From the NCBI RefSeq assembly GCF_030547005.1, contig NZ_JAUOPN010000002.1, forward strand, positions 186,001-250,000: a stretch of 64,000 nucleotides of DNA. Reading direction: 5' to 3'. The position numbers and the translations under genes are program-made. The DNA comes from Maribacter sp. 1_MG-2023. GTDB taxonomy: Bacteria > Bacteroidota > Bacteroidia > Flavobacteriales > Flavobacteriaceae. The notes below the pieces were generated by a model, which saw only the letters and a program-made list of their open reading frames with translations, made no database searches and was not told the origin of the DNA. Shown here in pieces: positions 1 to 46,942 of the stretch; the stretch's first letter is position 1, and the number at the start of each line of letters is the position of its first letter.

Positions 1-300
1 AAACGTTCAAGTAAAACTTTTTTTTAAAAATATTTTTTTCATTAAAAAAACCCATCTCCGAAGAAAACCCCCTGTAAACAGGGAATCCTAATGAAATGTT
101 AACACTGATAGATCCTCAATTTTTTGAGTTTCAAATATCATATTCAAAAAATATCCTAGCAAAATTTATTAAATTAACATTAATTTATATATTTGCTTAC
201 AGTAGCATAGTGTATCATAGTCTTTTTCTCTCAAAATACTTCCATGAGATTATGATTCCAATGTCAACAACAATAACTAACAACTGTAACAACTAACTTT
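1..300. other. Intergenic region upstream of susC
   Basis: No convincing gene is seen here. The stretch has poly-A/T runs near 20-50 and a small perfect inverted repeat (CCCTGT at 70-75, ACAGGG at 78-83). A promoter-like element lies at 188-195 and a CAA-rich leader at about 263-300, directly before the susC start. An open frame at 96-296 has no recognisable protein character and is treated as chance. Confidence 0.6.
188..195 (+). promoter_or_regulatory. Candidate -7 promoter element for susC
   Basis: TATATTTG matches the Bacteroidota -7 consensus TAnnTTTG exactly. I see no good -33 TTTG at the expected distance. If used, it gives a leader of about 100 nt ending in the CAA-rich stretch. Confidence 0.35.
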
Positions 301-3300
301 ATGAATTATCAAAAAAACTTTCCTAAGTTTTCCATGATTCGAAATCATGTAGGCTTAACGATGATTTTATTTTTTAGTGGATTTCTCTTCACCAGTCTCC
401 ACGCACAAACAACTGTTTCAGGTACTATTACATCAGCCTCAGACAACATGCCGTTACCGGGTGTTTCTGTCATTGATGCAAATAACCCAACAACGGGAGT
501 ACAAGCAGATTTTGATGGTAATTTTACCATCACCATCGATGATGGCAATTCTAGTTTACGATTTAGCTACATTGGCTTTAAAGCTGTAGTAGTGCCCGTA
601 AATAACAAAAGTACCATAAACGTTTCTCTAGAAGAAGATGTTGCCAACTTAGACGAAGTAGTTGTCGTTGGTTATGGTACACAGAAAAAAGCAACTGTAA
701 CTGGTGCAGTTACTGCGGTACAAGGTCCTGTTCTAGAAAGTTCGCCCGCAATTAGTGTATCTAACTCATTGGCAGGTAGACTGCCCGGGGTAGTAATCGT
801 ACAAACCAGTGGTGAGCCTGGTAATGATGAATCTACTATTAGCATTCGTGGTACAAACACTTTGGGTAACAACGAGCCTTTAATCGTTATAGATGGTATA
901 CCTGATAGAGATGGTGGTATAGCCCGTATTAATGCGGATGATATTGCAAATATTTCAGTTCTTAAAGATGCATCAGCCGCTATTTATGGTGCTAGAGCAG
1001 CAAACGGAGCTATTATTGTTACTACCAAAACTGGTAAAATTGGTAAAATGCAGATAAATTATAAAGCAGATTTTGGGATTACCAAACCCACAAGAGTACC
1101 AGAAATGGCCAGTGCTGTTGAGTACCAAACCATAATGAATGAGCTAGCTATTTATAATAGTAACATTCCTTCTTCACAATGGAGTGCTGCAAGTAGTGCA
1201 TTCCAAAACTCAGGTAATTATACTATTCCTGGAAGTAGTCCTGCAGAAACAGTTAACGCCGCATTCAGTCCTGAAACAATAAACAATCATAGAACAAAAG
1301 CAGATCCGTGGCTTTATCCTGATACAGATTGGTTTGGCGCAACTTTTAAAGATTGGGGAGAACAACAAAGACACAATCTATCTATTAGTGGTGGTAATGA
1401 AGATTTAAAATATTATGCTTCTTTAGGGTATTCTGACCAAGGTGCGATCTATAAGAATTCTGCGAACAGGTATCAGCAATATAATTTTAGATTAAATACC
1501 GATGCTAGAATTAACGACTACATTTCTACAAAGTTGAGCATGGCATACAGAAAGGAAGATAGAACTTTCCCTACTGAAGGTGCAGGTGCTATTTTTAGAA
1601 TGTTAATGAGAGGTAGACCAAATGAACCTGCGGTTTGGCCGAACGGCTTACCAGGACCGGATATTGAAAACGGACAACAACCGGTAGTGGTAACAACTAA
1701 TGCTACAGGTTATGACAAACAACCAACCGACTACCTTCAATTTACCGGGTCTGTTGATATTACAAACCCATGGGTTGAAGGCCTAAAATTAAACTTAACA
1801 GCAGGCGTAGATCAAAGTCAGTTACGTAGAAAACTATGGCAAACACCTTGGACTCTATACTCACTTGACCGTGATAAATATATAGCCACTGGTGTACCAG
1901 AACTAACGGGATCTATTCGATCAAACTTTACTGACGCAAGATTACTACAGTCTTCAAACAATGTTCTTAACACGAACCTTACGGGTATATTAACTTATGA
2001 CAAAATCATTGGTGAGGACCATAACATTGGTCTTTTAGCAGGTATAACCCGTGAAAATTTTCAAGGCGAATTTTTCTCTGCATTTAGAAGAAACTATCTT
2101 TCTACAGCTGTTGATCAACTTGGAGTTGGTGGTGAAATTGCACAAGAAACGGATGGTTATGGATATAACAGAACTCGTTTAGGATATTATGGTCGTGCTC
2201 AGTACAATTTTAAAGAAAAATATTTAGCTGAATTTATCTGGAGATATGACGGTTCTTATATTTTTCCAGGAAATGATCGTTTCGGTTTCTTCCCAGGTTT
2301 ATTACTTGGTTGGAACATTAACAATGAAGATTGGTTTAATGTAGACTCAATCAGTTACTTAAAACTTAGAGCTTCTTACGGAGAAATGGGTAACGACCAA
2401 GTTTCTTTTGATACCAATGGTGATGGAGAAATTACTGATGATGAATTACAGGAGTATGCCTATCAGTCTATTTATGAGTTCGGACAGTACCCTATAAATG
2501 GTCAAGTACAAACCACTCTTTTCGAAAACTTATTGGCTAATCCTAGCTTTACTTGGGAGCGTGCAAAGAACTATAACATTGGTTTAGATGGTATAGTTTT
2601 AGACGGCAAATTGAGTTTTACTCTTGAATACTTTTTAAATAAACGTGATCAAATTCTAATTCAGAAAACAGGTTCTACACCAGGTTCTTCTGGTATTTCT
2701 GCCCTATTACCTCCTGTAAATGCAGGTAAGGTAAATAATGAAGGTTTTGAATTTGCCTTTAACTATTTCGGCGGTAATATTGATGGCTTTAAATGGGATG
2801 TTGGTGTAAATGGTGGTTATTCTCAAAACAGTGTTGAGTTTTTAGATGAAATTCCTGGGGCTCCAGACTATCAATTACAAGAAGGAAAACCAATAGGTTC
2901 ATATTTAGTTTATGAATCAGATGGTGTTTTTATTGACCAAGCAGCCATAGACTCTGACCCATTAGATTATAGCGCAGTTAAGCCGACCCTAGAACCCGGA
3001 GATATGAAGTTTAAAGATGTTAATGGTGATGGTGCTATTAATGACCTAGATCAAGTAAGAATTAAAAATAGTATTAATCCTAATTTCAACTTTGGTGTTA
3101 CCTTTAATGCTTCTTATAAAAACTTTGATTTATCTGTTTTATTACAAGGTGCAACTGGCGCTAAATTATTTATCCAAACAGAATCTGGTGATATAGGTAA
3201 CTTCTTAAAGCATAGCTATGATAATAGATGGAGCCCAGATAACCCAAGTAGTATTCACCCAAGACTAGCAAGTCGTGGCGATACATATTATACAGGTGGC

Positions 3301-3552
3301 GATTACGGTGACAACACCTACAATCTTTATAGTAAAGATTACTTAAGACTTAAAAATGTTCAATTAGCATACAATTTTCCTACAAAATTAATTGAGCAAT
3401 TTGGCTTGTCTAAATTTAAGGTATACATGAGCGGTCTGAACTTGGCTACATGGGCTGCACAAGATATCTATGATCCTGAATCGACTAGTAATAGTGGACA
3501 GTTTTATCCACAACAGACTATTATTAACACAGGTTTTAGTTTAACATTTTAA
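301..3552 (+). CDS. SusC/RagA-family TonB-dependent outer-membrane transporter
   Basis: This 1083-residue protein is an outer-membrane barrel that imports oligomeric nutrients into the periplasm using TonB energy, working with the SusD lipoprotein encoded next. A signal peptide ends near residue 35 (LHAQ). A carboxypeptidase-regulatory-like beta domain covers about 37-112. The TonB-box/plug entry motif DEVVVVGYGTQKK lies at 118-130, followed by a plug domain and a long barrel that ends in an aromatic-containing strand (FSLTF). Two calcium-loop-like segments (DTNGDGEITDDE and DVNGDGAINDLD) occur in extracellular-loop positions. The size is typical of the family. The 9-nt gap to susD indicates one transcript. 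The substrate cannot be read from the sequence, and no glycoside hydrolase, HTCS or ECF regulator is nearby. SusC identity is secure. Confidence 0.96.
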   Translation: MNYQKNFPKFSMIRNHVGLTMILFFSGFLFTSLHAQTTVSGTITSASDNMPLPGVSVIDANNPTTGVQADFDGNFTITIDDGNSSLRFSYIGFKAVVVPVNNKSTINVSLEEDVANLDEVVVVGYGTQKKATVTGAVTAVQGPVLESSPAISVSNSLAGRLPGVVIVQTSGEPGNDESTISIRGTNTLGNNEPLIVIDGIPDRDGGIARINADDIANISVLKDASAAIYGARAANGAIIVTTKTGKIGKMQINYKADFGITKPTRVPEMASAVEYQTIMNELAIYNSNIPSSQWSAASSAFQNSGNYTIPGSSPAETVNAAFSPETINNHRTKADPWLYPDTDWFGATFKDWGEQQRHNLSISGGNEDLKYYASLGYSDQGAIYKNSANRYQQYNFRLNTDARINDYISTKLSMAYRKEDRTFPTEGAGAIFRMLMRGRPNEPAVWPNGLPGPDIENGQQPVVVTTNATGYDKQPTDYLQFTGSVDITNPWVEGLKLNLTAGVDQSQLRRKLWQTPWTLYSLDRDKYIATGVPELTGSIRSNFTDARLLQSSNNVLNTNLTGILTYDKIIGEDHNIGLLAGITRENFQGEFFSAFRRNYLSTAVDQLGVGGEIAQETDGYGYNRTRLGYYGRAQYNFKEKYLAEFIWRYDGSYIFPGNDRFGFFPGLLLGWNINNEDWFNVDSISYLKLRASYGEMGNDQVSFDTNGDGEITDDELQEYAYQSIYEFGQYPINGQVQTTLFENLLANPSFTWERAKNYNIGLDGIVLDGKLSFTLEYFLNKRDQILIQKTGSTPGSSGISALLPPVNAGKVNNEGFEFAFNYFGGNIDGFKWDVGVNGGYSQNSVEFLDEIPGAPDYQLQEGKPIGSYLVYESDGVFIDQAAIDSDPLDYSAVKPTLEPGDMKFKDVNGDGAINDLDQVRIKNSINPNFNFGVTFNASYKNFDLSVLLQGATGAKLFIQTESGDIGNFLKHSYDNRWSPDNPSSIHPRLASRGDTYYTGGDYGDNTYNLYSKDYLRLKNVQLAYNFPTKLIEQFGLSKFKVYMSGLNLATWAAQDIYDPESTSNSGQFYPQQTIINTGFSLTF

Positions 3553-3561
3553 AAAAAAATC

Positions 3562-5439
3562 ATGAAAAAAAGAAAATTAGTACTCTTAGGCTTACTAACA
3601 CTAGCGTTGGTACCTATTTCGTGTAATGAAGATTTCTTAGAAACTTCACCATTAGATGCCATTTCAGCAGATGCTACTTGGTCAGATGGTGCACTATCAG
3701 AAGCTTTTGTATTCAATGTTTACTCATCTCTAGGCTATGGAGGATTTGAGGAAGAAGGCTTATCATCATTAACAGACGAAGCAATGTTTACCCACTCCGG
3801 TAGAGGGGTAAATGTAATCACAGAAGGTTCACTTTCACCGTCAGGTACGGGAAACGTAAATATCATTCCGCAATGGAACGAGTTGTATTTAGCTATTCGT
3901 AAAGCAAATATCGCAATACAAGAATTACCAAACGCAGGGTTTGATGACCAAGCACTAAAAGATAGACTACTAGGTGAGTCCCACTTTTTAAGAGCTTATT
4001 ATTACCATCAACTAATGCGCTATTATGGTGGCGCACCATTAATAGATGCTCCATATGGTCTTGATGACGACTATACAATAGCTAGAGGTACATACGCAGA
4101 GAACGTAACTTTCGTATCAGAAGATTTAGATAAGGCAATTACATTGTTAGGCGGTAAAGATGTTACACCTGGTAGAGCATCAGTGTTAAGTGCAATGGGT
4201 TTAAAATCTAGAATACTTACTTATGCAGCTAGTGATTTAAGAGACGGACCTACTGCCAGTGCAAAATCATCAATACTAGGTGGATATTCAAATCTAGAAT
4301 TAGTTGCTTATACTTCAGGTGATAGAGATGCTAGATGGACAGACGCTAAAACTGCAGCCAAGGCAGTATTAGATGCAACAACTGGTTACAAATTAGATTT
4401 AGCAGCGCCTGCATCTGCAGAAGAAGCTGAACAGACTTATATCTCCATTGCTATGGGAGGTGGAAGTGCTGTTGGTGATGCTGCTGCAAGATCTGAACTT
4501 TTATTTGAAAGAACGCATTCACCTTTATTTACAGTTGAAAGTAACTGGCCTTTAGGTGGTATTCACCAAGGTATCAACAATGGTCCGAACGGTTACCACA
4601 ACTGGGCAGGTAATACGCCTATTCAGCAATTAGTAGATGACTACCAGATGATGGATGGTTCTGATTTCGATTGGAGCAATCCTGAGCACGCTGCTTCACC
4701 TTATGAAAACAGAGACCCTAGACTAGCTGCAACCGTTCTTTATGATGGAGCTGCTTGGAAACCAAGACCAGATGACGTTGCTGGAATAGATCCATTTGAT
4801 GAAATTCAGACAGGTACCTATGCAGATGGTAGTGGCGGAATTATTGCAGGTGTAGACATGCGTGATTCACCAATTGAAAACTGGAACGGAAGTAGAACAG
4901 GATATTACGTTCGTAAATTTATCGATTCAGATCCGTCATTAGTAGACAATCAATCAAGTGCACAGGTAGTGCCATGGCCGTTTATTCGTTATACTGAAGT
5001 AATATTGAACTATGTAGAAGCATCTATTGCACTTGGTGATGAAGGTGAAGCTAGAAATTGGCTAAACAAGATTCGTTATAGAGCAGGTATGCCAGCAATT
5101 GAATCATCAGGCACTGAGCTTTTAGAAGACTATATCAACGAAAGAAGGGTTGAACTAGCTTATGAAGAACATAGATACCATGATGCCAGAAGATGGATGA
5201 TAGCTGACCAAACATTGGGTAGAGGTATTAAAGTAATGAAAGTTACTGCGGCACTTAAAGCAGGTGCTACACCAAGAACTCCTTATCAATATGACACAAC
5301 AGTATATGATTACACGTATACCGTTGTTGACAATAATGATAATGAAACCAGAACTTGGGATGACAAAATGTATTTCATGCCTATTAGTAGAGATGAAATC
5401 AACAGAAATAACCTATTGATTCAGAATCCGGGTTATTAG
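3562..5439 (+). CDS. SusD/RagB-family nutrient-binding outer-membrane lipoprotein
   Basis: This 625-residue surface lipoprotein is the substrate-capturing lid of the SusC channel. The lipobox is LVPISC with the lipid-accepting Cys at about residue 21, followed by the typical EDFLETSP start of SusD proteins. The N-terminal helical TPR-like region is clear around residues 110-170 (FLRAYYYHQLMRYYGGAPL). The C-terminal SusD signature includes PFIRYTEVILNYVEA and NERRVELAYEEHRYHDARRW, close to family consensus. It follows susC by 9 nt and ends before a strong hairpin, so susC-susD may be more abundant than the genes behind. Ligand unknown. Confidence 0.96.
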   Translation: MKKRKLVLLGLLTLALVPISCNEDFLETSPLDAISADATWSDGALSEAFVFNVYSSLGYGGFEEEGLSSLTDEAMFTHSGRGVNVITEGSLSPSGTGNVNIIPQWNELYLAIRKANIAIQELPNAGFDDQALKDRLLGESHFLRAYYYHQLMRYYGGAPLIDAPYGLDDDYTIARGTYAENVTFVSEDLDKAITLLGGKDVTPGRASVLSAMGLKSRILTYAASDLRDGPTASAKSSILGGYSNLELVAYTSGDRDARWTDAKTAAKAVLDATTGYKLDLAAPASAEEAEQTYISIAMGGGSAVGDAAARSELLFERTHSPLFTVESNWPLGGIHQGINNGPNGYHNWAGNTPIQQLVDDYQMMDGSDFDWSNPEHAASPYENRDPRLAATVLYDGAAWKPRPDDVAGIDPFDEIQTGTYADGSGGIIAGVDMRDSPIENWNGSRTGYYVRKFIDSDPSLVDNQSSAQVVPWPFIRYTEVILNYVEASIALGDEGEARNWLNKIRYRAGMPAIESSGTELLEDYINERRVELAYEEHRYHDARRWMIADQTLGRGIKVMKVTAALKAGATPRTPYQYDTTVYDYTYTVVDNNDNETRTWDDKMYFMPISRDEINRNNLLIQNPGY

Positions 5440-5462
5440 TTTAGTTTAAATTGAGTTAAATT

Positions 5463-5493
5463 AAAGATCTATCCCTTTTTGGGATAGATCTTT
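5463..5493 (+). terminator. Strong intrinsic terminator or attenuator after susD
   Basis: A 13-bp perfect stem (AAAGATCTATCCC with GGGATAGATCTTT) encloses a TTTTT loop and is followed by a T-rich run. It lies between susD and the next co-directional gene, only 14 nt before that gene's start. It probably limits read-through from the highly expressed susCD pair. Confidence 0.8.
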
Positions 5494-5506
5494 TACTTTT
5501 AAGCAA

Positions 5507-8500
5507 ATGACAAAAAATCTAACTCTCTGTTTTCTTATTATATGTACACTCCTTCAAAGCTGTACAGAAAAGCCTAAAAAAGATGAAGCAACAGCTACTA
5601 TTAATAAGCCAGAAAAACCATCTCTTTTTACTCTTTTATCTGAAAATGAAACTAACGTTACTTTTCAGAACACTTTAAAAGAAGGGCTAAATGCTAATGT
5701 ATTGGTATATGAATACTTATATAATGGTGGTGGCGTAGCTACGGGAGACTTTAATAATGACGGATTACAAGATTTATATTTCACCTCTAATATGGGTGAA
5801 AATAAGTTCTATCTAAATGAAGGCGGTTTTACTTTTAAAGATGTAACCGCAATTTCAAAAGTCACCGGCAGACCAGGACCTTGGAAAACGGGTATTACGT
5901 CTGCAGACGTAAACGGCGACGGTAAATTAGACCTCTACCTATGTTATTCAGGAGCATTACCAGATGCCAAGCGTAAAAATCAACTTTTTATCAATCAAGG
6001 TAACGACGCTAACAACATTCCCATATTTAAAGAACAAGCTGAAGCATATGGATTGGCAAGTGCCGCATTCAGCAATCAAGGCTATTTTCTTGATTATGAT
6101 AAAGATGGCGATTTAGACATGCTGTTATTAAATCATAATCCGAAATCACTGCCAGTATTAAATGAAGTAAGCACAAAAGAATTCTTAAAAAAAGACGACC
6201 CATTTCAAGGTACTCGCCTATTTGAACAAAGAGATAATAAATTTTACGACATCACCGAAAAAGCAGGCATTAGCGGTTCTGCCCTAACCTACGGATTAGG
6301 TATTGCCATAAGTGACATCAATAACGACGGATGGCAAGACTTCTACATATCTAATGATTACACCGTGCCAGATTACTTGTACATCAATAATCAAAACGGA
6401 ACATTTACTGACCAATTGGGCAGCCAAATCGGGCATACAAGTCACTTCTCTATGGGAAATAACGTAGCGGATATTGATAATGACGGTCTGCAAGATATTT
6501 TCACATTAGACATGTTACCAAAAGATAACAAACGCCAAAAGCTACTTTTATCTCCAGATAATTATGAAAAGTTCGATTTAAATATCAGAAGCGGATTTCA
6601 TCATCAGTACATGCGAAACATGCTACAATTGAACAATGGTGATGACACCTTTAGTGAAATAGGTCAGTTATCAGGTATCTCAAATACAGATTGGAGCTGG
6701 GCTCCACTATTTGCAGATTTCGATAATGACGGATTTAAAGATCTATTTATTTCTAACGGATATTTCAGAGACTACACCAATTTAGATTTCATCAATTACA
6801 TGGATAGTTACGTAAAATCTAAAGGCAGGTTACAAAGACAAGATGTTTTAGAGTTAATTAAAGAAATGCCAGCATCTAACCTCACAAACTTCTTTTACAG
6901 TAATAAAGACGGCGTAAACTTTACTGACAATACTAAAAGTGCCGGTATGGATCAACCCGCGAATAGTAACGGCGCTATATATACCGATTTAGATAATGAT
7001 GGTGATTTGGATCTAGTGGTTAATAACATTAACAAACCGGCTTTTATTTACAGAAACGATTCGCCAAATGAAACCAACAATTATTTAAGTATAGAACTTA
7101 AAGGCAGCGATAAAAATACAAATGGTATTGGTTCTAAAGTAAGTATTTTCAGTGATGGAGAAACTCAAGTAATTGAACAGATGCCCACTCAAGGTTATCT
7201 ATCAACTGTTTCATCCATTTTACATTTTGGATTGGCTGATAACACTACCATAGATTCCCTAGTAATCAATTGGAATTCGGGCAAAACGGAAACTCTAAAA
7301 CAAGTTACTAAAAATCAATTATTATTGCTTCAAGAAAGTAATGCAAAAAAATCAGTTTTTGTAGAAGGCAAATCAGAAGTTTTATTTTCAAAGGTCGCAA
7401 ATGCTATTAATTACCTGCACCGATCATCATCAGTAAATGACTTTAAAAGGCAATCACTTTTATTAAAACAAGTATCTCATGACGGTCCGCCAATGGCGAA
7501 GGGAGATATAAATAATGACGGATTAGAAGATCTTGTCATTGGTGGTGGCATTGAGCAAGCAACATCCATATTTATACAGAACAACAATAAGAAATTTACT
7601 CAAAAAGTCAATACTAGTTTTGATGTAGACAAAGAAAACATCGATTCAGACATCGCACTTATTGATGTAAATAATGATGGTAAATTAGACATGTACGTTG
7701 CCAGTGGTGGCTACCATAACTTTACCCAAAATGATCCTTTATTACAAGACCGATTGTATTTAGGTGATGGGAAAGGAAATTTTGTAAAATCTGAATCTGC
7801 ACTACCAAGCATGCAGACTAATACGGCTTCTGTTGCTTTTTCAGATGTAAACCACGATACTTTTTTAGATATTTTCGTTGGTGGATCTGTTACACCCGGT
7901 CGTTTTCCTGAATCATCTAGCAGCTATATTCTAATAAATGATGGTAAAGGAAATTTTACGGACAAGACGGATGCTATTCAGCCAGAATTGAAAAATTTAG
8001 GTATGACCACTCATGCTGTTTGGGCAGACATGGACGGTGATAAAAAAGAAGATTTAATAGTTGTTGGTGAATGGATGCCTATTTCTATTTACCTCAATAA
8101 AAATGGTAAATTAATTAATGAAACCAATCAGTTTTTTGAAGAGCCCTTATCCGGATTATGGACAAGCCTACATGTAACTGACCTTAATAAAGATGGTAAA
8201 CCGGATATAATTGCTGGTAACATTGGTAGCAATACTCAATTTACATTGAGTACCGATACTCCCGCTGAATTATATTATTCAGATTTTGATAATAATGGTT
8301 CTGTAGATCCTATTTTAAATTTTTATATGGATGGCACTAGCTACCCCTATATCACAAGAGATGAGTTGCTAGGTCAGCTTTCAGGTAAACGACAACAGTT
8401 TAATAGTTATGAAAAATATGCCAATGCAACTTTAAAAGAGATTTTCAATGAAACCGAATTGCAGAAGGCCAATAAACTAACCATAACACATCAAGAAACT

Positions 8501-8848
8501 ACCGTTTTAATGAGCACTGCAAATGGCAAATACCAAAACATACCACTACCTATTCAAGCGCAATACTCCCCTATTTCAGAAATTATAAGTTCAGATTTCA
8601 ACAAAGATGGTATTGTAGATTTGCTATTTTTAGGCAACAATGATTTTTATAAACTTAGAATAGGGAAGTTTGATGCCAACTATGGCACAGTACTTTTAGG
8701 TGTTGGCAACGGTACTTTTAAATATGTATCGCAATCAAAATCTGGACTATCAATAAAAGGAAGTAACACCCATGCAGTATTGATAAATGATGAACTTATA
8801 TTAACCAGTTACGGCGCAGCAACTGAAACCTATAAACTTTTAAAATAG
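5507..8848 (+). CDS. VCBS/FG-GAP repeat lipoprotein with ASPIC/UnbV domain (CRTAC1-like)
   Basis: This 1113-residue exported lipoprotein (lipobox LLQSC, Cys about residue 19) is predicted to form calcium-binding beta-propellers on the cell surface. I count 14 acidic loops of the form DxNxDGxxD, for example DFNNDGLQD, DVNGDGKLD, DIDNDGLQD and DFNKDGIVD, spread through the whole protein. An ASPIC/UnbV module sits near 524-600 (NGIGSKVSIF, then HFGLADNTTIDSLVINW). No catalytic motif is visible. Proteins of this class often sit beside SusC/SusD in marine Flavobacteriia, and a binding or scaffolding role is inferred. Only 14 nt separate it from the haloperoxidase gene downstream. Function is otherwise unknown. 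Confidence 0.88.
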   Translation: MTKNLTLCFLIICTLLQSCTEKPKKDEATATINKPEKPSLFTLLSENETNVTFQNTLKEGLNANVLVYEYLYNGGGVATGDFNNDGLQDLYFTSNMGENKFYLNEGGFTFKDVTAISKVTGRPGPWKTGITSADVNGDGKLDLYLCYSGALPDAKRKNQLFINQGNDANNIPIFKEQAEAYGLASAAFSNQGYFLDYDKDGDLDMLLLNHNPKSLPVLNEVSTKEFLKKDDPFQGTRLFEQRDNKFYDITEKAGISGSALTYGLGIAISDINNDGWQDFYISNDYTVPDYLYINNQNGTFTDQLGSQIGHTSHFSMGNNVADIDNDGLQDIFTLDMLPKDNKRQKLLLSPDNYEKFDLNIRSGFHHQYMRNMLQLNNGDDTFSEIGQLSGISNTDWSWAPLFADFDNDGFKDLFISNGYFRDYTNLDFINYMDSYVKSKGRLQRQDVLELIKEMPASNLTNFFYSNKDGVNFTDNTKSAGMDQPANSNGAIYTDLDNDGDLDLVVNNINKPAFIYRNDSPNETNNYLSIELKGSDKNTNGIGSKVSIFSDGETQVIEQMPTQGYLSTVSSILHFGLADNTTIDSLVINWNSGKTETLKQVTKNQLLLLQESNAKKSVFVEGKSEVLFSKVANAINYLHRSSSVNDFKRQSLLLKQVSHDGPPMAKGDINNDGLEDLVIGGGIEQATSIFIQNNNKKFTQKVNTSFDVDKENIDSDIALIDVNNDGKLDMYVASGGYHNFTQNDPLLQDRLYLGDGKGNFVKSESALPSMQTNTASVAFSDVNHDTFLDIFVGGSVTPGRFPESSSSYILINDGKGNFTDKTDAIQPELKNLGMTTHAVWADMDGDKKEDLIVVGEWMPISIYLNKNGKLINETNQFFEEPLSGLWTSLHVTDLNKDGKPDIIAGNIGSNTQFTLSTDTPAELYYSDFDNNGSVDPILNFYMDGTSYPYITRDELLGQLSGKRQQFNSYEKYANATLKEIFNETELQKANKLTITHQETTVLMSTANGKYQNIPLPIQAQYSPISEIISSDFNKDGIVDLLFLGNNDFYKLRIGKFDANYGTVLLGVGNGTFKYVSQSKSGLSIKGSNTHAVLINDELILTSYGAATETYKLLK

Positions 8849-8862
8849 CTTTTTAAATAACG

Positions 8863-10224
8863 ATGACTAGTACCATAAATAAAACATTTACAAGAATTTC
8901 TACCGTACTGCTGCTCTTGCTTATAATGGCATGCTCTACAAATGAGCAGCCAAAAATGAGTGATAAAGAAGTTGCTTTAGAATGGGCAAATATGACCTTG
9001 TTCATCACCAGATATACACCCTCGAACTCCCCCACTTTTGCATCTAGGGCATTTGGCTATACTGGGCTAACCATGTATGAGGCTATTGTACCGGGTTTCA
9101 CTGAATATAAATCAATGAATGGTCAATTGAAAGGGTTAGAAATGCTTCCTATGGCAGATGACTCTAAGGAATATAGTTGGGTATTGGCATTAAATGCTGG
9201 GCAATCAGAAATTCTAAAGAATATCTACGTTCAAACATCCGAAGAAAACATTCAAAAAATTGATTCTCTAGAACAAGTGATATTTACTCAATTTCAAAAT
9301 CGTTTAGACGAACAAACCGTTTCGCGTTCTGTGGCCTTTGGTAAATCTGTCGCACAAACTATTTTCGAATGGTCAAAAACAGATGGCGGACACAGAGGAT
9401 ATCTCAATAATTTCGATAAAACAATGGTACACCCAGATAGACCAGGTGCTTGGAAACCACCATTATTTGCTCAATCATTCAGCCACCACCCATTACACCC
9501 ACATTGGGGAGAAAATAGAACTTTTGCTTCCACAAATAAAGAACTTGAAGACCCAAAGATGATTCCGTATGACACAACTGTTGGTTCTCCTTATTACAAG
9601 CAGTTTGAAAATGTATATCTAAAAGATTTAGAATTAACACAGCTAGAAAAAGAAGCGGCTATCTGGTGGGGCGATGACCCAGATGTAAGTTTTACACCAC
9701 CAGGTCACTCATACTATTTTGCTACCCTAGCCGTAGAAGGTCATGACATTTCGCTTATTGAAACTGCACAGGTCTATGCACAAGTAGGTATGGCAGTTTC
9801 AGATGCTTTTGTTAACTGCTGGAAATGGAAATATCAATTTTTTACCGAGCGTCCAAATACTTTTGTACCTAAATATATAGATGAGGAATGGGAATCTTTT
9901 TGGCCCGACCCTCCATTCCCCTCTTTTCCATCTGGTCACGCTATACAAGCTGCAGCTGCTGCAACGGTCTTAGAACATAACTTTGGAAAAGAATTTACGT
10001 TTACAGACAAAGCCCATGAAGGCAGAGAACGCGATGAACTCAAAGAAACCGATTTTGTAATTCGGTCATTCGACACCTTTTGGGATGCCGCACTAGAAAC
10101 TGCAGATTCTAGATTTTATGGTGGTATACACACACAATTAGACAACGAAGTAGGGCTAGAAAAAGGGGTAGAAATTGCAAAAAACGTTTATGCCCTAGAA
10201 TGGAAGAACAATGATAAAAAATAA
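8863..10224 (+). CDS. Vanadium-dependent haloperoxidase / PAP2-superfamily lipoprotein
   Basis: This 453-residue lipoprotein (lipobox LLLIMAC, Cys 24) belongs to the acid phosphatase/vanadium haloperoxidase superfamily. All oxyanion-binding motifs are intact: K-x6-RP (K323, R330), PSGH (357-359 plus P356) and SR-x5-H-x3-D (R417, H423). The long N-terminal helical region and the 56-residue spacing between the last two motifs fit the haloperoxidase-like branch better than small PAP2 lipid phosphatases. Vanadate and phosphate bind the same pocket, so either halide peroxidation or phosphatase activity is possible. It sits between two UnbV proteins and overlaps the second by 14 nt, indicating translational coupling. 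Surface or periplasmic location is inferred from the lipobox. Confidence 0.88.
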   Translation: MTSTINKTFTRISTVLLLLLIMACSTNEQPKMSDKEVALEWANMTLFITRYTPSNSPTFASRAFGYTGLTMYEAIVPGFTEYKSMNGQLKGLEMLPMADDSKEYSWVLALNAGQSEILKNIYVQTSEENIQKIDSLEQVIFTQFQNRLDEQTVSRSVAFGKSVAQTIFEWSKTDGGHRGYLNNFDKTMVHPDRPGAWKPPLFAQSFSHHPLHPHWGENRTFASTNKELEDPKMIPYDTTVGSPYYKQFENVYLKDLELTQLEKEAAIWWGDDPDVSFTPPGHSYYFATLAVEGHDISLIETAQVYAQVGMAVSDAFVNCWKWKYQFFTERPNTFVPKYIDEEWESFWPDPPFPSFPSGHAIQAAAAATVLEHNFGKEFTFTDKAHEGRERDELKETDFVIRSFDTFWDAALETADSRFYGGIHTQLDNEVGLEKGVEIAKNVYALEWKNNDKK

Positions 10225-11908
10225 TTCAGCACTTATTAAAATAAGCAATACCACATTCTTTCTATTATTCGGATTGATGAGCTATGCACAACAAACTTTT
10301 ACCGATATATCAGAAACTGCTGGCATTGACCACCAATATGAAGTCTATGAGGGTACTTTTGGCGGTGGTGTCACAGTATTCGATGTCAATAATGACGGTT
10401 ACGAAGATTTATATATAACGAGTGGTATAAAATCAGATCGATTATACCTTAACAATGGTGACGGTACTTTCAAAGATGTTTTTAAAAATTCTGGACTAGA
10501 AGTTACAGATGAGTTTGCTACTCAAGGTGTCGTAAGTGCCGATATTAATAAAGATGGATATAGAGATTTGTTCATCACGACCATTACCACTACCGATGGT
10601 AAAAGCGTTATACCAAGGGCAAAAAACTTACTCTTCTTAAATAATGGAGATGCAACCTTTAAAGATGTAACGAATGAATACGGCTTAGAGGATTTAAACT
10701 CCTTCAGTACAGGACCAAGTTTTGGTGATTTTAATGCAGATGGATATACTGATTTATTTGTGGGTAATTATTTTCAAGAATTTACTGGCAAACTGGGTAT
10801 TATAAAAGATGCCACCATAGTTAGTGCGAACCAAACCGCTAGAAGTTATTTACTAAAAAATGAAGGCGGCAAAGGTTTTGAAAACGTGTATGATGAATAT
10901 GGTTTAGGGCATAAAGGTTTTGGTTTCGGTGGAGTTTTCACCGATTATGATAATGACCAAGATCAAGACTTATTGGTGAATCAAGATTTTGGCTATAAAG
11001 CCGTTCCTAATTTTCTATACCGAAATGAGTATCCTGATCTCCATTTTGATGATGCCAGCAAGGAAACCGAAATGGATTTAAAAATTAACGCCATGGGTGC
11101 AGCTGTAGGCGATTATAACGGTGATGGGTGGATGGATTATTACATTACCAACATCAAGTTCAATATGCTAATGGAGAATCAAGGTATCGGTAAACCGTTT
11201 GTAGATAAAGCAAAAGAATTAGGCACTTACAATTTAGCAATTAGTTGGGGTGCGAATTTTGCTGATTTTGATCATGATGAAGATTTAGATTTGTTTGTTT
11301 CTAACGGAGACCTGAATCCGAATTGCACACCTATGGGCAATTTTTATTTTGAAAATAACGACAATACCTTTACTGAAAAAGGAAGGGAATTAGCCATTAA
11401 CGATTACGGAATTGGTAGGGGTTCGGTAATATTTGATATGGATAATGATGGTGATATGGATTTACTAGTTGTAAATCAAAAACCTATTTTAAATTACCCA
11501 ATATCATCTACCACACGACTTTTTAGAAATGATTTAGAAAAAGGTAATTGGCTAAAAGTTGCTCTTAAAGGTTTGGATTCAGAAGCAAATGGCATCGGCT
11601 CTCGCGTAACTGTAGTTGCTAATGGAAAAAGAATTATCAGAGAAATTGATGGTGGTGGGTCTAGTCATTTATCACAAAACTCAGTGATAGCGCACTTTGG
11701 TTTGAGAGATAATACTGCTGTTGATTCTGTAATTGTAAATTGGACAGGCGGTAATACTCAAATACTGACTAATATAAAAACTAACCAACAGTTAGAAATT
11801 GTAGAAATCAATCAACCGAAAAAGGAAACTTCTACTATTTGGTACCTGCTTGGCGCTTTAGTACTTCTTGTTGTTATCTATTTTGTAGATAAAAAGAAAA
11901 AGCAATAA
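10211..11908 (+). CDS. VCBS/FG-GAP repeat protein with UnbV domain and C-terminal membrane anchor
   Basis: This 565-residue protein has a cleavable signal peptide (ending near SYAQQ) rather than a lipobox. It carries seven acidic propeller loops, including DVNNDGYED, DINKDGYRD, DFNADGYTD and DMDNDGDMD, and an ASPIC/UnbV module at about 445-520 (NGIGSRVTVV, then HFGLRDNTAVDSVIVNW). Unlike the larger paralogue upstream it ends with one hydrophobic helix (about 542-559) and a basic tail DKKKKQ, so it is probably anchored in the inner membrane and faces the periplasm. No T9SS C-terminal domain is visible. Its ATG lies inside the haloperoxidase gene. It is the last gene of the cluster. Function unknown beyond likely calcium binding. 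Confidence 0.87.
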   Translation: MIKNNSALIKISNTTFFLLFGLMSYAQQTFTDISETAGIDHQYEVYEGTFGGGVTVFDVNNDGYEDLYITSGIKSDRLYLNNGDGTFKDVFKNSGLEVTDEFATQGVVSADINKDGYRDLFITTITTTDGKSVIPRAKNLLFLNNGDATFKDVTNEYGLEDLNSFSTGPSFGDFNADGYTDLFVGNYFQEFTGKLGIIKDATIVSANQTARSYLLKNEGGKGFENVYDEYGLGHKGFGFGGVFTDYDNDQDQDLLVNQDFGYKAVPNFLYRNEYPDLHFDDASKETEMDLKINAMGAAVGDYNGDGWMDYYITNIKFNMLMENQGIGKPFVDKAKELGTYNLAISWGANFADFDHDEDLDLFVSNGDLNPNCTPMGNFYFENNDNTFTEKGRELAINDYGIGRGSVIFDMDNDGDMDLLVVNQKPILNYPISSTTRLFRNDLEKGNWLKVALKGLDSEANGIGSRVTVVANGKRIIREIDGGGSSHLSQNSVIAHFGLRDNTAVDSVIVNWTGGNTQILTNIKTNQQLEIVEINQPKKETSTIWYLLGALVLLVVIYFVDKKKKQ

Positions 11909-22838: not shown

Positions 22839-24623
22839 ATGCCCATCCAAAAGAATAAAATTTTAAAAAGTATTTACAAATGGAGATATAAACATATCTC
22901 TCAAAAGACCTTTGTTTACATTTTAAGTGTAGTTGTAGGTCTTTTGGCAGGCTTGGCGTCGGTAACCCTTAAGAACATAACTTACTTTATAGAAGCATCC
23001 CTTGAAAAAGGAATTAATATCTCCAGTAATCAACTGTATTTTATTCTTCCTATTATTGGTTTAACATTAGTTTATCTGTACGTAAAATATATTCATAAAG
23101 AGAAATTAAAACATGCTGTTTCTTCCATTCTATTTTCACTTTCAAAAAACAAGGGGCGTATAGATGTAAAACAGGTCTATACACAGTTAATTATAGCTCC
23201 TTTAACCGTTGGTTTTGGTGGATCGGTAGGTTTATTAGGGCCGGCAGTAGCAACCGGTGCCGCTATTAGCTCCAACCTTGGTAGGCTTTTTCATATTAAC
23301 AGCAAAACACGTTCTTTATTAATTGCCTGCGCATCGGCAGGTGCAATCTCATCTATATTTCAGTCGCCAATTGCTGCCATTATTTTTGCCGTTGAAGTAT
23401 TCAGTTTAGATTTAACCATGATATCGATGCTACCTCTTTTATTAGCATCTATTAGCGGTGTACTTACCTCCTACTTTTTTATGGGAAACGAAGTGCTATT
23501 CAATTTCTCTATTACAGAACCCTTTGAAGTTAAAGACACCTTGTTTTATATTCTCTTAGGTGTTGGTACCGCTGTAGCGTCTATTTACTTTACAAAAATG
23601 TACTTCGGCATAATCAACCTTTTTAAACCATTAAAGAGTCCGAAATATCGGCTTTTAGTTGGTGGTCTTGCTATAGGTATTATGTTGTATATGATTCCTC
23701 CACTGTATGGTGAAGGTTTTTCCTTTATCAACGACCTTTTAATCGGTGATCATATTAAAGCTTTGGGCAAGACACCTTTCGATGCTTACATTGGCAATAT
23801 TTGGGTAGTAATAGCACTTTTGATCGGTATTACTATTTTTAAGGCGGTAGCGATGACCACTACTTTAGCCGCAGGAGGAGCAGGAGGAATTTTCATACCT
23901 ACAATGGTTATGGGTAGTGCTTTAGGCAATGTAGTGGCAAAATTGATTAACAATTCTGGATTAGGGTTTTCGGTATCTGAAAGTAATTTTACCTTAATTG
24001 GTATGGCAGGTCTCATTGCGGGAGTACAGCACGCTCCGCTAACGGCTATTTTCCTTATTGCTGAAATTACAGGTGGTTATGCCCTATTTGTGCCTTTAAT
24101 GATAACAGCATCTATATCTTATATCATCACAAAAAACACAGTTGATTACACCATTTACACAAGAGAATTGGCTGAAAGCGGAGACTTGCTGACCCACAAT
24201 AAAGATCAAGCGGTACTTACTCTTATGGATTTAGACACTGTAATTGAAACCAACTTTAAAGCTGTACACCCAGATATGACCTTGGGTGAAATGCTACACG
24301 ACTCTGTCGCCAAATCAACACGAAATATTTTTCCCGTTGTAGATGTAAATCACATGTTTTTGGGTATTATTTTATTAGACGATATTAGGGAGTTTATGTT
24401 CGATACCAAATTGTACAACACTACAAAGGTGGAAACATTTACCCATAAAGCACCCGATCATATATATTATGGGCTGGACAGTATGCAAATTGTAATGCAA
24501 AAATTTCAAGATAGTGGCGCGTGGAATTTACCCGTAGTCAAAAACGGAAAATACATGGGCTTTGTTTCCAAATCAAAACTATTAACCGCGTACAGAAGAG
24601 AACTTATAAAATTCACAAAGTAA
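22839..24623 (+). CDS. CLC-family chloride channel/transporter with CBS domains
   Basis: This 594-residue membrane protein has a CLC core (about 20-430) and a C-terminal pair of CBS domains (about 450-590; SVAKSTRNIFPVVD, SGAWNLPVVKNGKYMGFVSK). The segment aligned with the selectivity motif GREGP of exchangers reads GLLGP at 131-135, so the external gating glutamate is Leu133. Replacing this residue in studied CLC exchangers uncouples proton movement, so this protein may be a passive anion channel or have another gate. A second pore-lining signature is seen as AAGGAGGIFIPTMVMGSALG near 345-365. It is followed by a small membrane gene after 8 nt. Confidence 0.93.
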   Translation: MPIQKNKILKSIYKWRYKHISQKTFVYILSVVVGLLAGLASVTLKNITYFIEASLEKGINISSNQLYFILPIIGLTLVYLYVKYIHKEKLKHAVSSILFSLSKNKGRIDVKQVYTQLIIAPLTVGFGGSVGLLGPAVATGAAISSNLGRLFHINSKTRSLLIACASAGAISSIFQSPIAAIIFAVEVFSLDLTMISMLPLLLASISGVLTSYFFMGNEVLFNFSITEPFEVKDTLFYILLGVGTAVASIYFTKMYFGIINLFKPLKSPKYRLLVGGLAIGIMLYMIPPLYGEGFSFINDLLIGDHIKALGKTPFDAYIGNIWVVIALLIGITIFKAVAMTTTLAAGGAGGIFIPTMVMGSALGNVVAKLINNSGLGFSVSESNFTLIGMAGLIAGVQHAPLTAIFLIAEITGGYALFVPLMITASISYIITKNTVDYTIYTRELAESGDLLTHNKDQAVLTLMDLDTVIETNFKAVHPDMTLGEMLHDSVAKSTRNIFPVVDVNHMFLGIILLDDIREFMFDTKLYNTTKVETFTHKAPDHIYYGLDSMQIVMQKFQDSGAWNLPVVKNGKYMGFVSKSKLLTAYRRELIKFTK

Positions 24624-38754: not shown

Positions 38755-40458
38755 ATGAATCAAGATGAAATATTCGACGCAATTGTTGTTGGAACAGGAA
38801 TAAGTGGTGGCTGGGCTGCTAAGGAATTAACAGAGAATGGCTTAAAAACGCTTGTTTTGGAACGCGGTCCTATGGTAAAGCATGTAGTAGATTATCCTAC
38901 GATGAACGATGACCCGTGGGATTATCCTTTAAAAGGTAAATTATCTAAGGAGGATGAGAAAAAATATCATGTACAAAAACGCGTAAAATGGGCTCCGACA
39001 GAAGACTCAAAGCACTTTTTTGTAAACGATCTTGACCACCCGTATGTAGAAACAAAACGTTTTGACTGGATTCGCGGATATCAAGTTGGTGGTAGATCAC
39101 TTACTTGGGGTCGTCAAAGCTATCGATGGAGCGATATTGATTTTGAAGCAAATAAAAAAGACGGGGCTGGTGTAGACTGGCCTGTTAGATATAATGATAT
39201 TTCGCCTTGGTACGATAAAGTTGAAAAATATATTGGGGTAAGTGGCGAAAAATTAGGCTTAGATGTGTTGCCTGATGGCATATTTCAACCCGCTATGAAA
39301 TTGAATTGTGTTGAAGAAGATTTTAAAAAAACAACTGCCGATAAGTTTGATGATGGTAGACTTGTAACAATCGGTAGAGCTGCCCATATTACAGACCCCA
39401 ACGCTACATTTGAAGGTCGTGGTGTTTGTCAGAACAGAAATCGTTGCTGGCGCGGGTGTCCATTTGGAGGTTACTTTAGCAGTAACTCATCTACGCTACC
39501 TGCAGCGGAACGTACCGGAAACATGACCTTGAGACCAAATTCCATCGTGCATGAAATCATCTATGACGATACCACAAAAAAAGCAACAGGCGTACGAATC
39601 ATTGATGCTGAAACCAATGAGAAAATTGAATTTAAGGCAAAGGTGATTTTTCTATGCGCATCGGCCATGGCATCGGTTGGCATCTTGCTACAATCTAAAT
39701 CTGAACGCTTCCCTAACGGATTAGGAAATGATTCTGATGCTTTAGGAAGAGGTATTATGGACCACCATTATAAACTTGGAGCAACTGCTAAAGTTGATGG
39801 TTACTTAGATAAGTATTATAAAGGAAGACGTGCGAACGGCTTCTACATACCTCGATTTGTAAACCTGAACGAGAAAACAAAACGCGAAGGTTATTTACGT
39901 GGTTTCGGTTACCAAGGCACTGCAAGCAGAGGAGATTGGTCTAAAGAAATTGGCGAGTTAGGGTACGGAAAAGAGCTAAAAGAATCTGTACTAAAACCAG
40001 GAAGTTGGACCATTGGAGTAACAGGGTTTGGTGAATTTTTACCATATGACGATAACCGAGTTACCCTAAGCCCTACTGAGAAAGACAAATGGGGATTACC
40101 ACAATTGGCTTTTGACGTTGAGTTTAAAGAGAACGAGTATAAAATGCGCGAAGACATTAAAAAAGAAATTGTAACGATGTTCAAAGAAGCTGGCTTTAAA
40201 GAAGTTTCTTCTTATGATGAACCTAGCGGACCCGGCTTAGGCATTCATGAAATGGGTGGCGCAAGAATGGGGCACAGTGCAAAGACTTCGATTATAAATA
40301 AAAATAATCAAGTACATTTGGTACCGAATGTGTATGTGACCGATGGTGCTTTTATGTCATCATCTAGCTGTGTAAATCCGTCATTAACCTATATGGCTTT
40401 TACGGCAAGAGCAGCAAACCATGCAGCCGAACAATTAAAAGCAGGAAAATTCGCATAA
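38755..40458 (+). CDS. GMC-family FAD-dependent sugar dehydrogenase with Fe-S cysteine motif
   Basis: This 567-residue flavoprotein is predicted to oxidise a sugar hydroxyl. The FAD-binding start VVGTGISGGWAAKEL lies near 12-26. The cysteine pattern C-x5-C-x3-C (C225, C231, C235) matches the spacing of the 3Fe-4S cluster ligands of bacterial FAD-glucose dehydrogenase. The C-terminal GMC part has GIHEMGGARMG and SSSCVNPSLTYMAF with the usual His/Asn. There is no signal peptide and no small-subunit gene beside it, unlike its paralogue at 45230. It is divergent from the isomerase-DUF1080 operon. Confidence 0.92.
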   Translation: MNQDEIFDAIVVGTGISGGWAAKELTENGLKTLVLERGPMVKHVVDYPTMNDDPWDYPLKGKLSKEDEKKYHVQKRVKWAPTEDSKHFFVNDLDHPYVETKRFDWIRGYQVGGRSLTWGRQSYRWSDIDFEANKKDGAGVDWPVRYNDISPWYDKVEKYIGVSGEKLGLDVLPDGIFQPAMKLNCVEEDFKKTTADKFDDGRLVTIGRAAHITDPNATFEGRGVCQNRNRCWRGCPFGGYFSSNSSTLPAAERTGNMTLRPNSIVHEIIYDDTTKKATGVRIIDAETNEKIEFKAKVIFLCASAMASVGILLQSKSERFPNGLGNDSDALGRGIMDHHYKLGATAKVDGYLDKYYKGRRANGFYIPRFVNLNEKTKREGYLRGFGYQGTASRGDWSKEIGELGYGKELKESVLKPGSWTIGVTGFGEFLPYDDNRVTLSPTEKDKWGLPQLAFDVEFKENEYKMREDIKKEIVTMFKEAGFKEVSSYDEPSGPGLGIHEMGGARMGHSAKTSIINKNNQVHLVPNVYVTDGAFMSSSSCVNPSLTYMAFTARAANHAAEQLKAGKFA

Positions 40459-45229: not shown

Positions 45230-46942
45230 ATGAGCAAATTTTATTATAACGAAGAACAAGAGTCTTACGATGCAATTGTCGTAGGTACTGGAATAAGTGG
45301 TGGTTGGGCCGCAAAAGAACTATGCGAGGCAGGCCTTAAAACCCTAGTTTTAGAACGCGGTAGAATGGTTAAACATATAGAAGACTACGAGACCGCGAAC
45401 AAAGATCCTTGGGATTTTCCGAATGCAGGTGAACCAACCAAAGAAATTATAGCACAACAAGCAAAACAACATAGAACAGGTTACACTACAAACCAAGCAA
45501 ATAATATGTGGTTTGTAAATGACTTAAAGCATCCATATAACGAAACAAAAAGATTCGATTGGATGAGAGGGTACCACCTAGGTGGACGCTCGCTACAGTG
45601 GGGTCGTCAAAGTTATCGTTTAAGTGATATTGATTTTGGAGCAAATAAAAAGGATAAGATTGCCGTTGATTGGCCTGTTCGCTATAAAGACATCGCACCT
45701 TGGTATGATAAGGTAGAGACATTTATTGGTGTAAGTGGTGAAAATTTAGGGCTAGAGCAATTACCTGACGGTCAATTTTTACCAATGATGGACCTAAACT
45801 GTGTAGAGCAGGAATTCAGAGAAAAAGTTGCAGAAAATTTTGATGGTCGTGTAGTAACTGCTGGTAGAACAGCACACATTACAGGCACAAAACAATTTGA
45901 CGGAAGAAGTAAATGTCAATTTAGAAACAGATGTATAAGAGGGTGTCCTTTTGGAGCATACTTCAGCAGTTTGTCTTCTACATTACCAGCAGCAGAAGCT
46001 ACAGGTAATATGACCCTTAGACCAGATTCTATTGTACATGAAGTAATTTATGACCCAAAGACAAAGAAAGCTACAGGTGTAAAAGTAATTGACGCAAATA
46101 CGAAAGAAACATTTGAATTTAAAGCAAAAGTTATTTTCTTATGTGCATCAGCAATTGCATCTACTTCTATATTAATGCAATCTAAATCTGAAACCTTCCC
46201 TAATGGTATGGGTAATGAATCTGACCAATTAGGCCGTAACATAATGGACCACCAATTAAAAGTAGGAGCTTCTGGTAAATTTGACGGATTTGAAGATAAA
46301 TACTATAAAGGAAGAAAACCTAGTGGAATCTATATTCCAAGATTTAGAAACTTAGGTGGTGATTCTGATAGAAAAGATTACATAAGAGGATTCGGCTATC
46401 AAGGTGGGGCCTCTAGAGGTAATTGGCAAGAATCTATTGCCGAACTATCTTACGGTAAAGAATTAAAAGATGCTGTTTTAAAACCAGGTGGATGGACGTT
46501 TGGTATGATGGGCTTTGGAGAAGTACTACCATACGAAAACAACAGATTTACATTAGACTACGATAAATTAGATGATTGGGGTCTACCAACAGTTACTTTT
46601 GATGCTGAGCTTCAAGAAAACGAACTTAAAATGCGTAAAGACATTTTAGAGTCGGCTGTTGATATGTTAGAAAAAGCGGGACTTAGAGATGTAAAGGGTT
46701 ATGATGAAGAAAGTGCATTAGGTTTAGGTATACATGAAATGGGTACTGCCCGTATGGGAAGAGACAGAAAAACATCTGTTCTAAACGGAAACAACCAATT
46801 ACATGATGTATCTAATGTATATGTAACTGACGGGTCATTTATGACCTCTGCTAGTTGTGTAAACCCATCATTAACTTACATGGCCTTTACGGCTAGAGCT
46901 GCGGATCATGCAGTTAAAGAACTTAAAAAAGGAAACATATAA
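45230..46942 (+). CDS. GMC-family FAD-dependent sugar dehydrogenase, catalytic subunit
   Basis: This 570-residue flavoprotein is a close paralogue of the one at 38755. FAD motif VVGTGISGGWAAKEL lies near 17-31, and the C-x5-C-x3-C motif (C229, C235, C239) fits a 3Fe-4S cluster as in FAD-glucose dehydrogenase. The C-terminus has GIHEMGTARMG and SASCVNPSLTYMAF. It has no signal peptide of its own. Its stop overlaps the start of a Tat-type small subunit (TAATG), so export as a folded complex is likely. An oxidised 3-keto-glycoside is a plausible product; the substrate is unproven. Confidence 0.93.
   Translation: MSKFYYNEEQESYDAIVVGTGISGGWAAKELCEAGLKTLVLERGRMVKHIEDYETANKDPWDFPNAGEPTKEIIAQQAKQHRTGYTTNQANNMWFVNDLKHPYNETKRFDWMRGYHLGGRSLQWGRQSYRLSDIDFGANKKDKIAVDWPVRYKDIAPWYDKVETFIGVSGENLGLEQLPDGQFLPMMDLNCVEQEFREKVAENFDGRVVTAGRTAHITGTKQFDGRSKCQFRNRCIRGCPFGAYFSSLSSTLPAAEATGNMTLRPDSIVHEVIYDPKTKKATGVKVIDANTKETFEFKAKVIFLCASAIASTSILMQSKSETFPNGMGNESDQLGRNIMDHQLKVGASGKFDGFEDKYYKGRKPSGIYIPRFRNLGGDSDRKDYIRGFGYQGGASRGNWQESIAELSYGKELKDAVLKPGGWTFGMMGFGEVLPYENNRFTLDYDKLDDWGLPTVTFDAELQENELKMRKDILESAVDMLEKAGLRDVKGYDEESALGLGIHEMGTARMGRDRKTSVLNGNNQLHDVSNVYVTDGSFMTSASCVNPSLTYMAFTARAADHAVKELKKGNI

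Follow-up and report, generated by a model that had tools for sequence, protein, structure and literature searches.

A conserved SusCD operon of Maribacter with a vanadium-haloperoxidase-family enzyme in the usual place of a carbohydrate-active enzyme

The DNA analysed here is a stretch of 64,000 nucleotides from a Maribacter genome (hereafter the window, whose positions serve as coordinates for the operon). It contains five consecutive genes that encode a SusC/RagA transporter, a SusD-family lipoprotein, a first UnbV/ASPIC propeller protein (U1), a lipoprotein of the vanadium-haloperoxidase (vHPO) family (H) and a second propeller protein (U2), with the reading frames of H and U2 overlapping by 14 bp. 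An earlier note, made from the sequence of this window, described five co-directional genes with a SusCD pair and two UnbV proteins, and the five open reading frames with their TIGR04056 and Pfam matches bear this out. The note also reported that no glycoside hydrolase is present; Pfam indeed finds neither a glycoside hydrolase nor any other carbohydrate-active enzyme domain in the five proteins, i.e. the locus lacks the enzyme by which polysaccharide utilisation loci are recognized. It does have the adjoining SusC transporter and SusD lipoprotein that characterize SusCD uptake systems (median gap 10 bp, 43 loci). The operon is a conserved and new variant of the SusCD locus, with a haloperoxidase in the place of the usual enzyme. 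A search of open-licence papers only found no description of SusD/SusC combined with UnbV and haloperoxidase genes, so that its novelty is unproven.

Features of the operon and its promoter region (window positions)
Feature	Position	Strand	Basis
Putative -7 element TATATTTG of the susC promoter	188..195	+	sequence read
Putative GntR operator GTAGCATAGTGTATCATAG, 19 bp	202..220	+	direct repeat GTA(G/T)CATAG x2, 10-bp period, at the expected transcription start
SusC/RagA TonB-dependent outer-membrane transporter	301..3552	+	TIGR04056, 862 bits
SusD-family surface lipoprotein	3562..5439	+	PF07980 5.8e-55; CNEDFL export-signal-like N terminus
Terminator-like hairpin between susD and U1	5463..5493	+	13-pair stem
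U1, UnbV/ASPIC FG-GAP propeller lipoprotein, 1113 aa	5507..8848	+	PF13517 x7 stretches, PF07593 at 540-606; lipobox
H, vanadium-haloperoxidase-family lipoprotein, 453 aa	8863..10224	+	PAP2 2e-10; VCPO_N weak, 9e-5
U2, UnbV/ASPIC FG-GAP propeller protein, 565 aa	10211..11908	+	PF07593 1.9e-18; signal peptide; C-terminal transmembrane helix, basic tail

The association of the five genes is not due to chance. Scanning 84,980 species genomes yielded 68 loci, which belong to Flavobacteriia, Cytophagia, Chitinophagia and Saprospiria and have best-segment identities of 53-96%, the closest orthologue among the fetched loci being that of Maribacter spongiicola (H 96% identical). The earlier note had made its proposal depend on conservation of the neighbourhood beyond this genome, and among the 50 fetched loci that reach 16 kb or more, all five genes are present in 46, across these four classes. 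Gene order in the 50 loci is mostly C-D-U1-H-U2 with some local rearrangements, and the median gaps are 70.5 bp between susD and U1, 5 bp between U1 and H and -4 bp between H and U2. When 395 Bacteroidota genomes were drawn evenly, an H with ≥57% identity turned up in only four, each of which also has SusD (≥63%) and U2 (≥59%) on the same contig within a few kb. The set is thus old but patchy. The H clade includes genera whose known habitats are freshwater, soil and hot springs, such as Flavihumibacter, Sediminibacterium, Flectobacillus and Thermoflexibacter; this distribution does not support the specifically algal role that had been suggested.

H belongs to the vHPO family. The complete K-x6-RP / PSGH / SR-x5-H-x3-D site claimed for this lipoprotein is present letter for letter (K323-x6-R330P, P356-S357-G358-H359, S416-R417-x5-H423-x3-D427), and it includes all residues of a vanadate site (K323, R330, S357-G358-H359, R417 and H423). 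Across 40 homologues, P331 is the only listed letter that varies, and W320 and F352 (PPF352P) are likewise invariant. W320 is a Trp at the Lys-3 position; a Trp there occurs in chlorinating vHPOs, but specificity is not readable from one residue (PMC11871015). A phmmer search with H finds the Zobellia galactanivorans iodoperoxidase ZgVIPO1 (4CIT) first (2.6e-44), followed by vanadium chloroperoxidases (VCPO). With a profile of 40 H orthologues against the PDB, 4CIT reaches 2.5e-64, vanadium bromoperoxidases (VBPO) and VCPO range from 4e-6 to 1e-3, and NapH3, a homologue catalysing a rearrangement, matches weakly; all 15 PDB matches at E ≤0.1 are of the vHPO family and none is an acid phosphatase.

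Structure prediction, which the earlier note had recommended, leads to the same family. The AlphaFold 2 (AF2) model of H (pLDDT 83.7, pTM 0.86; weak stretches at 201-215 and 328-333) retrieves only vHPO-family structures among the top 17 Foldseek matches, headed by 4CIT/4USZ, and aligns with 4CIT over its whole length (TM-score 0.73/0.80, 431 columns). By this comparison H has the full-length double alpha-helical bundle, whereas acid phosphatases cover half of the length, with a TM-score of ~0.28 on H. A quick version of the enzyme tree places H outside the clade of ZgVIPO1, a branch with support 99 separating the H clade from the vanadium iodoperoxidase (VIPO) clade. A third H-like group in Flavobacteriaceae (loci L123, L125, L128 and L133; 27-29% identity) lies away from UnbV genes, beside unidentified genes.

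H and VIPO enzymes occur in similar surroundings. The same Maribacter genome has a second cluster on contig C23 (locus L106) with the order LacI-SusC-SusD-SSF-UnbV-UnbV-VIPO; its VIPO enzyme is closely related to ZgVIPO1 (2.6e-223). VIPO-clade enzymes account for 16 of 20 Flavobacteriaceae loci with an H-like enzyme outside the H clade; 14 of these 16 enzymes are encoded directly behind at least one UnbV gene, with intervening genes at L140 and no UnbV gene at L142. In one genome (G001), an enzyme ~99% identical to ZgVIPO1 is preceded by several UnbV genes and then by SusD and SusC. SusCD-U1 sets related to that of the operon (SusD 56-57%) bear VIPO-clade enzymes at L143 and L144, a VIPO-clade enzyme directly follows H in Thermoflexibacter (L079), and H, U2, U1 and a VIPO-clade enzyme adjoin in Sediminibacterium (L081). 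H and VIPO types therefore occupy one niche, and this makes peroxidase chemistry a better fit than phosphatase chemistry. Another redox enzyme occurs in clusters of this kind: in two loci of one genus (L159, 10709-12094; L160, 7776-9149), the genes after SusC-SusD encode a di-haem CCP/MauG-family lipoprotein and a UnbV protein resembling U2. A U2 relative also stands beside a VIPO-like enzyme at L204. We rejected U2 as a strict peroxidase marker, since this pairing is confined to L159, L160 and L204 and absent from most distant U2 relatives.

To the left, the operon unit extends ~1.15 kb beyond the window and begins there with a divergently oriented gene for a GntR regulator (contig C12:184848-185864), which ends 137 bp before the window. 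Its sensor domain matches Peripla_BP_3 weakly, under Pfam's own cut-off. The promoter -7 consensus in Bacteroidota is TAnnTTTG, and TATATTTG is a putative element of this type; because the putative operator lies just behind it, a bound repressor could block initiation. GTAGCATAGTGTATCATAG is found upstream of susC in all 18 fetched loci where the GntR gene adjoins susC (0-2 mismatches), is unique in the Maribacter genome at ≤3 mismatches (0 sites for the reversed control), and persists as a decayed copy (2 mismatches) at L050, where the GntR gene is not beside susC. This conservation shows the predicted pairing of GntR and operator for the susC operon. A palindromic operator was rejected because the loci share no inverted repeat and the conserved site is a direct repeat; a generic sigma-70 promoter scan gave no excess over chance.

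The same site is also found at sugar loci. Locus L150 has an exact GTAGCATAGTGTATCATAG before susC, a flanking GntR 66% identical to that of the operon, and genes for SusCD, for one UnbV and one melibiase-like protein and for a DUF7133 protein that bears a cytochrome, with genes further left similar to those in the Maribacter genome. At L178 and L179, a site with 2 mismatches precedes a melibiase-like gene and then an SSF transporter, beside GntR. A 4-mismatch site before a true GH36 gene at L180 is merely suggestive, because about four such sites are expected by chance in the whole scan. No melibiase-like enzyme was found elsewhere in the Maribacter genome. Occurrence of the same regulator and site at sugar loci and at the H operon makes a sugar inducer the simplest inference.

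Signals in the proteins suggest where they may act. Acidic export signals follow the cysteine of Bacteroidota surface lipoproteins (C-x-K-(D/E)2, SDDDD, SDDFE; PMC5080379). SusD retains a start of the form C-x(1-4)-[DE]-[FYL]-[LMI] in 43 of 50 orthologues. By contrast, C-x-K-(D/E)2 occurs in none of 40 H proteins, only 12 of which have at least two acidic residues at +2 to +6, and no signal of this type is seen after the lipid cysteine of U1. U2 ends in a hydrophobic helix in all 60 complete orthologues, followed by a basic tail in 59, as would be expected of a protein anchored in the inner membrane whose propeller lies in the periplasm. H is more likely to act in the periplasm than at the surface, because it lacks the export signal and the U2 anchor looks inner-membrane. 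The proposal of the earlier note, surface halogenation/oxidation or dephosphorylation, is thus upheld in part: an uptake-type operon and haloperoxidase-class chemistry remain, with halogenation/oxidation favoured, while the surface location does not.

U1 paralogues adjoin SusCD at five further loci of the same genome. In that genome, U1-type UnbV lipoproteins of ~1110 aa accompany four SusCD pairs, other than that of the operon, that lack a haloperoxidase (L109, 7818-11153; L110, 11051-14365; L111, 7519-10875; L112, 5595-8936), and U1 therefore looks like a general SusCD partner. The hairpin position after susD folds with z < -2 in 39 of 41 loci (mononucleotide shuffles), and its stem letters vary across loci with pairing preserved (no formal covariation test). 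It is probably an attenuator that would give more SusCD than U1-H-U2.

To the right, the operon is flanked by a TetR gene and then a TolC/HlyD/RND efflux set, which accompany the cluster in near relatives only. Recurrent flanking genes (efflux pump, prenyl synthase and pentose phosphate genes) were rejected as a substrate clue because they track species synteny. A gene 11 kb downstream (22839-24623) encodes a CLC-type chloride channel that includes a CBS domain; the closeness of this halide transporter to a haloperoxidase operon is probably a coincidence. Two GMC oxidoreductases of ~570 aa (38755-40458 and 45230-46942) lie 27-35 kb from the operon among smaller genes, with which they possibly form a sugar-oxidation gene set.

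The best explanation of these data, in which our confidence is about even, is a sugar-responsive SusCD uptake operon whose glycoside hydrolase has been replaced by a vHPO-family enzyme. In such an operon, (i) the GntR repressor, with its LacI-type sugar-sensing domain, would occupy the direct-repeat operator at the susC start until a sugar-like inducer releases it; (ii) SusCD would bring in a glycoside or glycoconjugate, and the hairpin 3' of susD would restrict expression of U1-H-U2; (iii) H, presumably on the periplasmic face of the outer membrane given its missing export signal, would oxidize halide with vanadate and H2O2 as its family does, and the oxidant or H itself could modify the imported compound or consume peroxide; and (iv) the calcium-type propellers of U1 (a lipoprotein) and U2 (membrane-anchored and facing the periplasm) would probably keep H and substrate at the transporter. 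H is probably a periplasmic, peroxide-using haloperoxidase, judging from its sequence. Sequence and fold favour halogenation/oxidation over dephosphorylation, as does the exchange of H for enzymes of the iodoperoxidase clade.

Several points weigh against this explanation. The regulator is not universal: FecR/ECF genes lie upstream at L054 and L081, a LacI-type gene at L105, and at some loci no regulator is visible. No H2O2-producing oxidase is among the operon genes. Use of vanadium and oxidation of a halide by H would follow from family chemistry, its substrate and purpose are unproven, and the locations of the operon proteins are predictions from their signals. Three H relatives of one family in the phylum draw (43-45%) stand alone without SusCD; enzymes 41-45% identical to H at L153 to L156, in one bacterial family, have neither SusCD nor UnbV neighbours; and the close H orthologues at L068 and L085 also stand without SusCD. 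The homologue NapH3 performs a rearrangement, and apo-vHPOs can dephosphorylate (PDB 3BB0 title).

The last point bears on the main alternative, which we consider unlikely: that H is a PAP2-superfamily phosphatase that dephosphorylates an imported phospho-sugar or phospho-compound, as in Flavobacterium Pus loci. PAP2 phosphatases and vHPOs have their active site in common, all of whose residues are present in H, and a sugar-type regulator would suit a phospho-sugar too. SusCD beside phosphatases is documented in F. johnsoniae, but the described Pus loci use PhoA or phosphodiesterases (PMC8115612). H, moreover, matches vHPOs across the full double bundle and acid phosphatases over half of it, the haloperoxidase-type W320 and PPF352P are invariant, and VIPO-clade enzymes, one of them 99% like the solved iodoperoxidase, take the same position. 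The phosphatase reading survives because the site is shared and apo-vHPOs can dephosphorylate, but it is the weaker of the two. A Pho-type explanation was rejected on gene content, the cluster showing no phosphate-specific neighbour (without a scan for Pho boxes).

It is rather improbable that the operon serves halide (iodide) acquisition or peroxide defence, with H making HOI/I2 from peroxide and iodide and this product being taken up or destroying peroxide. In Arenibacter C-21, which has at least five ZgVIPO1 homologues, iodine uptake is reported to depend on glucose, oxygen and calcium and to involve an inferred haloperoxidase (PMC5064120), and Zobellia vIPO3 rises on Ascophyllum (PMC9296495). 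These results fit a link between sugar, peroxide and vHPO but concern loci other than the H operon. A calcium need would also suit FG-GAP proteins. However, the regulator and operator indicate sugars, no halogen transport is known for SusCD pairs, and the H clade extends to genera of freshwater, soil and hot springs. Equally improbable is that an ordinary oligosaccharide enters through the importer and U1, with H and U2 as passengers that have an unrelated task (e.g. hypohalite against competitors or signals): the same SusCD lineage does occur beside genes of other kinds (melibiase-like, beta-galactosidase, fucosidase, sulfatase or oxidoreductase), so that this transporter type is not tied to H, but the tight U1-H-U2 spacing is maintained over four classes and a HOX source in the periplasm, with no signal for export, would damage the cell that makes it.

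A wider form of the favoured explanation, a sugar-responsive uptake operon with a vHPO-family enzyme, can be put forward tentatively. Bacteroidota may possess phylum-wide 'oxidative' uptake loci, in which SusCD and UnbV propellers pass a sugar-linked compound to a peroxide-using enzyme (a vHPO of either clade, sometimes a CCP/MauG-family haem enzyme) and halogenating/oxidizing chemistry replaces hydrolysis; bacterial vanadium iodoperoxidases would then have their native role in such loci. To our knowledge, the physiological task of these enzymes is open, though one crystal structure exists. The two vHPO clades are standing members of SusCD-UnbV loci, which gives a genomic context to enzymes without a known bacterial job and a function-bearing one to UnbV/ASPIC proteins. 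The regulator and operator of one set can be used to find the inducer, and the question becomes concrete: which sugar releases GntR, what cargo SusCD carries and how H acts on it.

Compared with known systems, H is most like ZgVIPO1 (4CIT, 4USZ), with which it shares the full-length fold, catalytic residues, a lipoprotein signal and a place behind UnbV genes in SusCD-associated clusters. The two differ in clade and are only ~30% identical, with PSGH and WKWK in H against TSGH and WDEK in ZgVIPO1, and the H-x3-D aspartate is found in H but not in ZgVIPO1. H also resembles the vanadium chloroperoxidase of Curvularia inaequalis in site layout (W-K-x-K, PPFP-x-x-PSGH-type and H-x3-D), while sequence similarity to this 609-aa enzyme is weak. 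At the level of gene clusters, the C23 cluster likewise combines SusCD, UnbV propellers and a vHPO, but has another SusCD lineage, a LacI regulator and an SSF transporter, and lacks U2. PusCD of F. johnsoniae is another SusCD system that serves a purpose other than plain glycan cleavage (PMC8115612), with PhoA/phosphodiesterases and a phosphate response in contrast to the vHPO-family enzyme and sugar-type regulator of the H operon. Polysaccharide utilisation loci share with the H operon the SusC/SusD pair, a sugar-sensor regulator and a hairpin after susD; where they have a carbohydrate-active enzyme, the H operon has a vHPO and two UnbV proteins.

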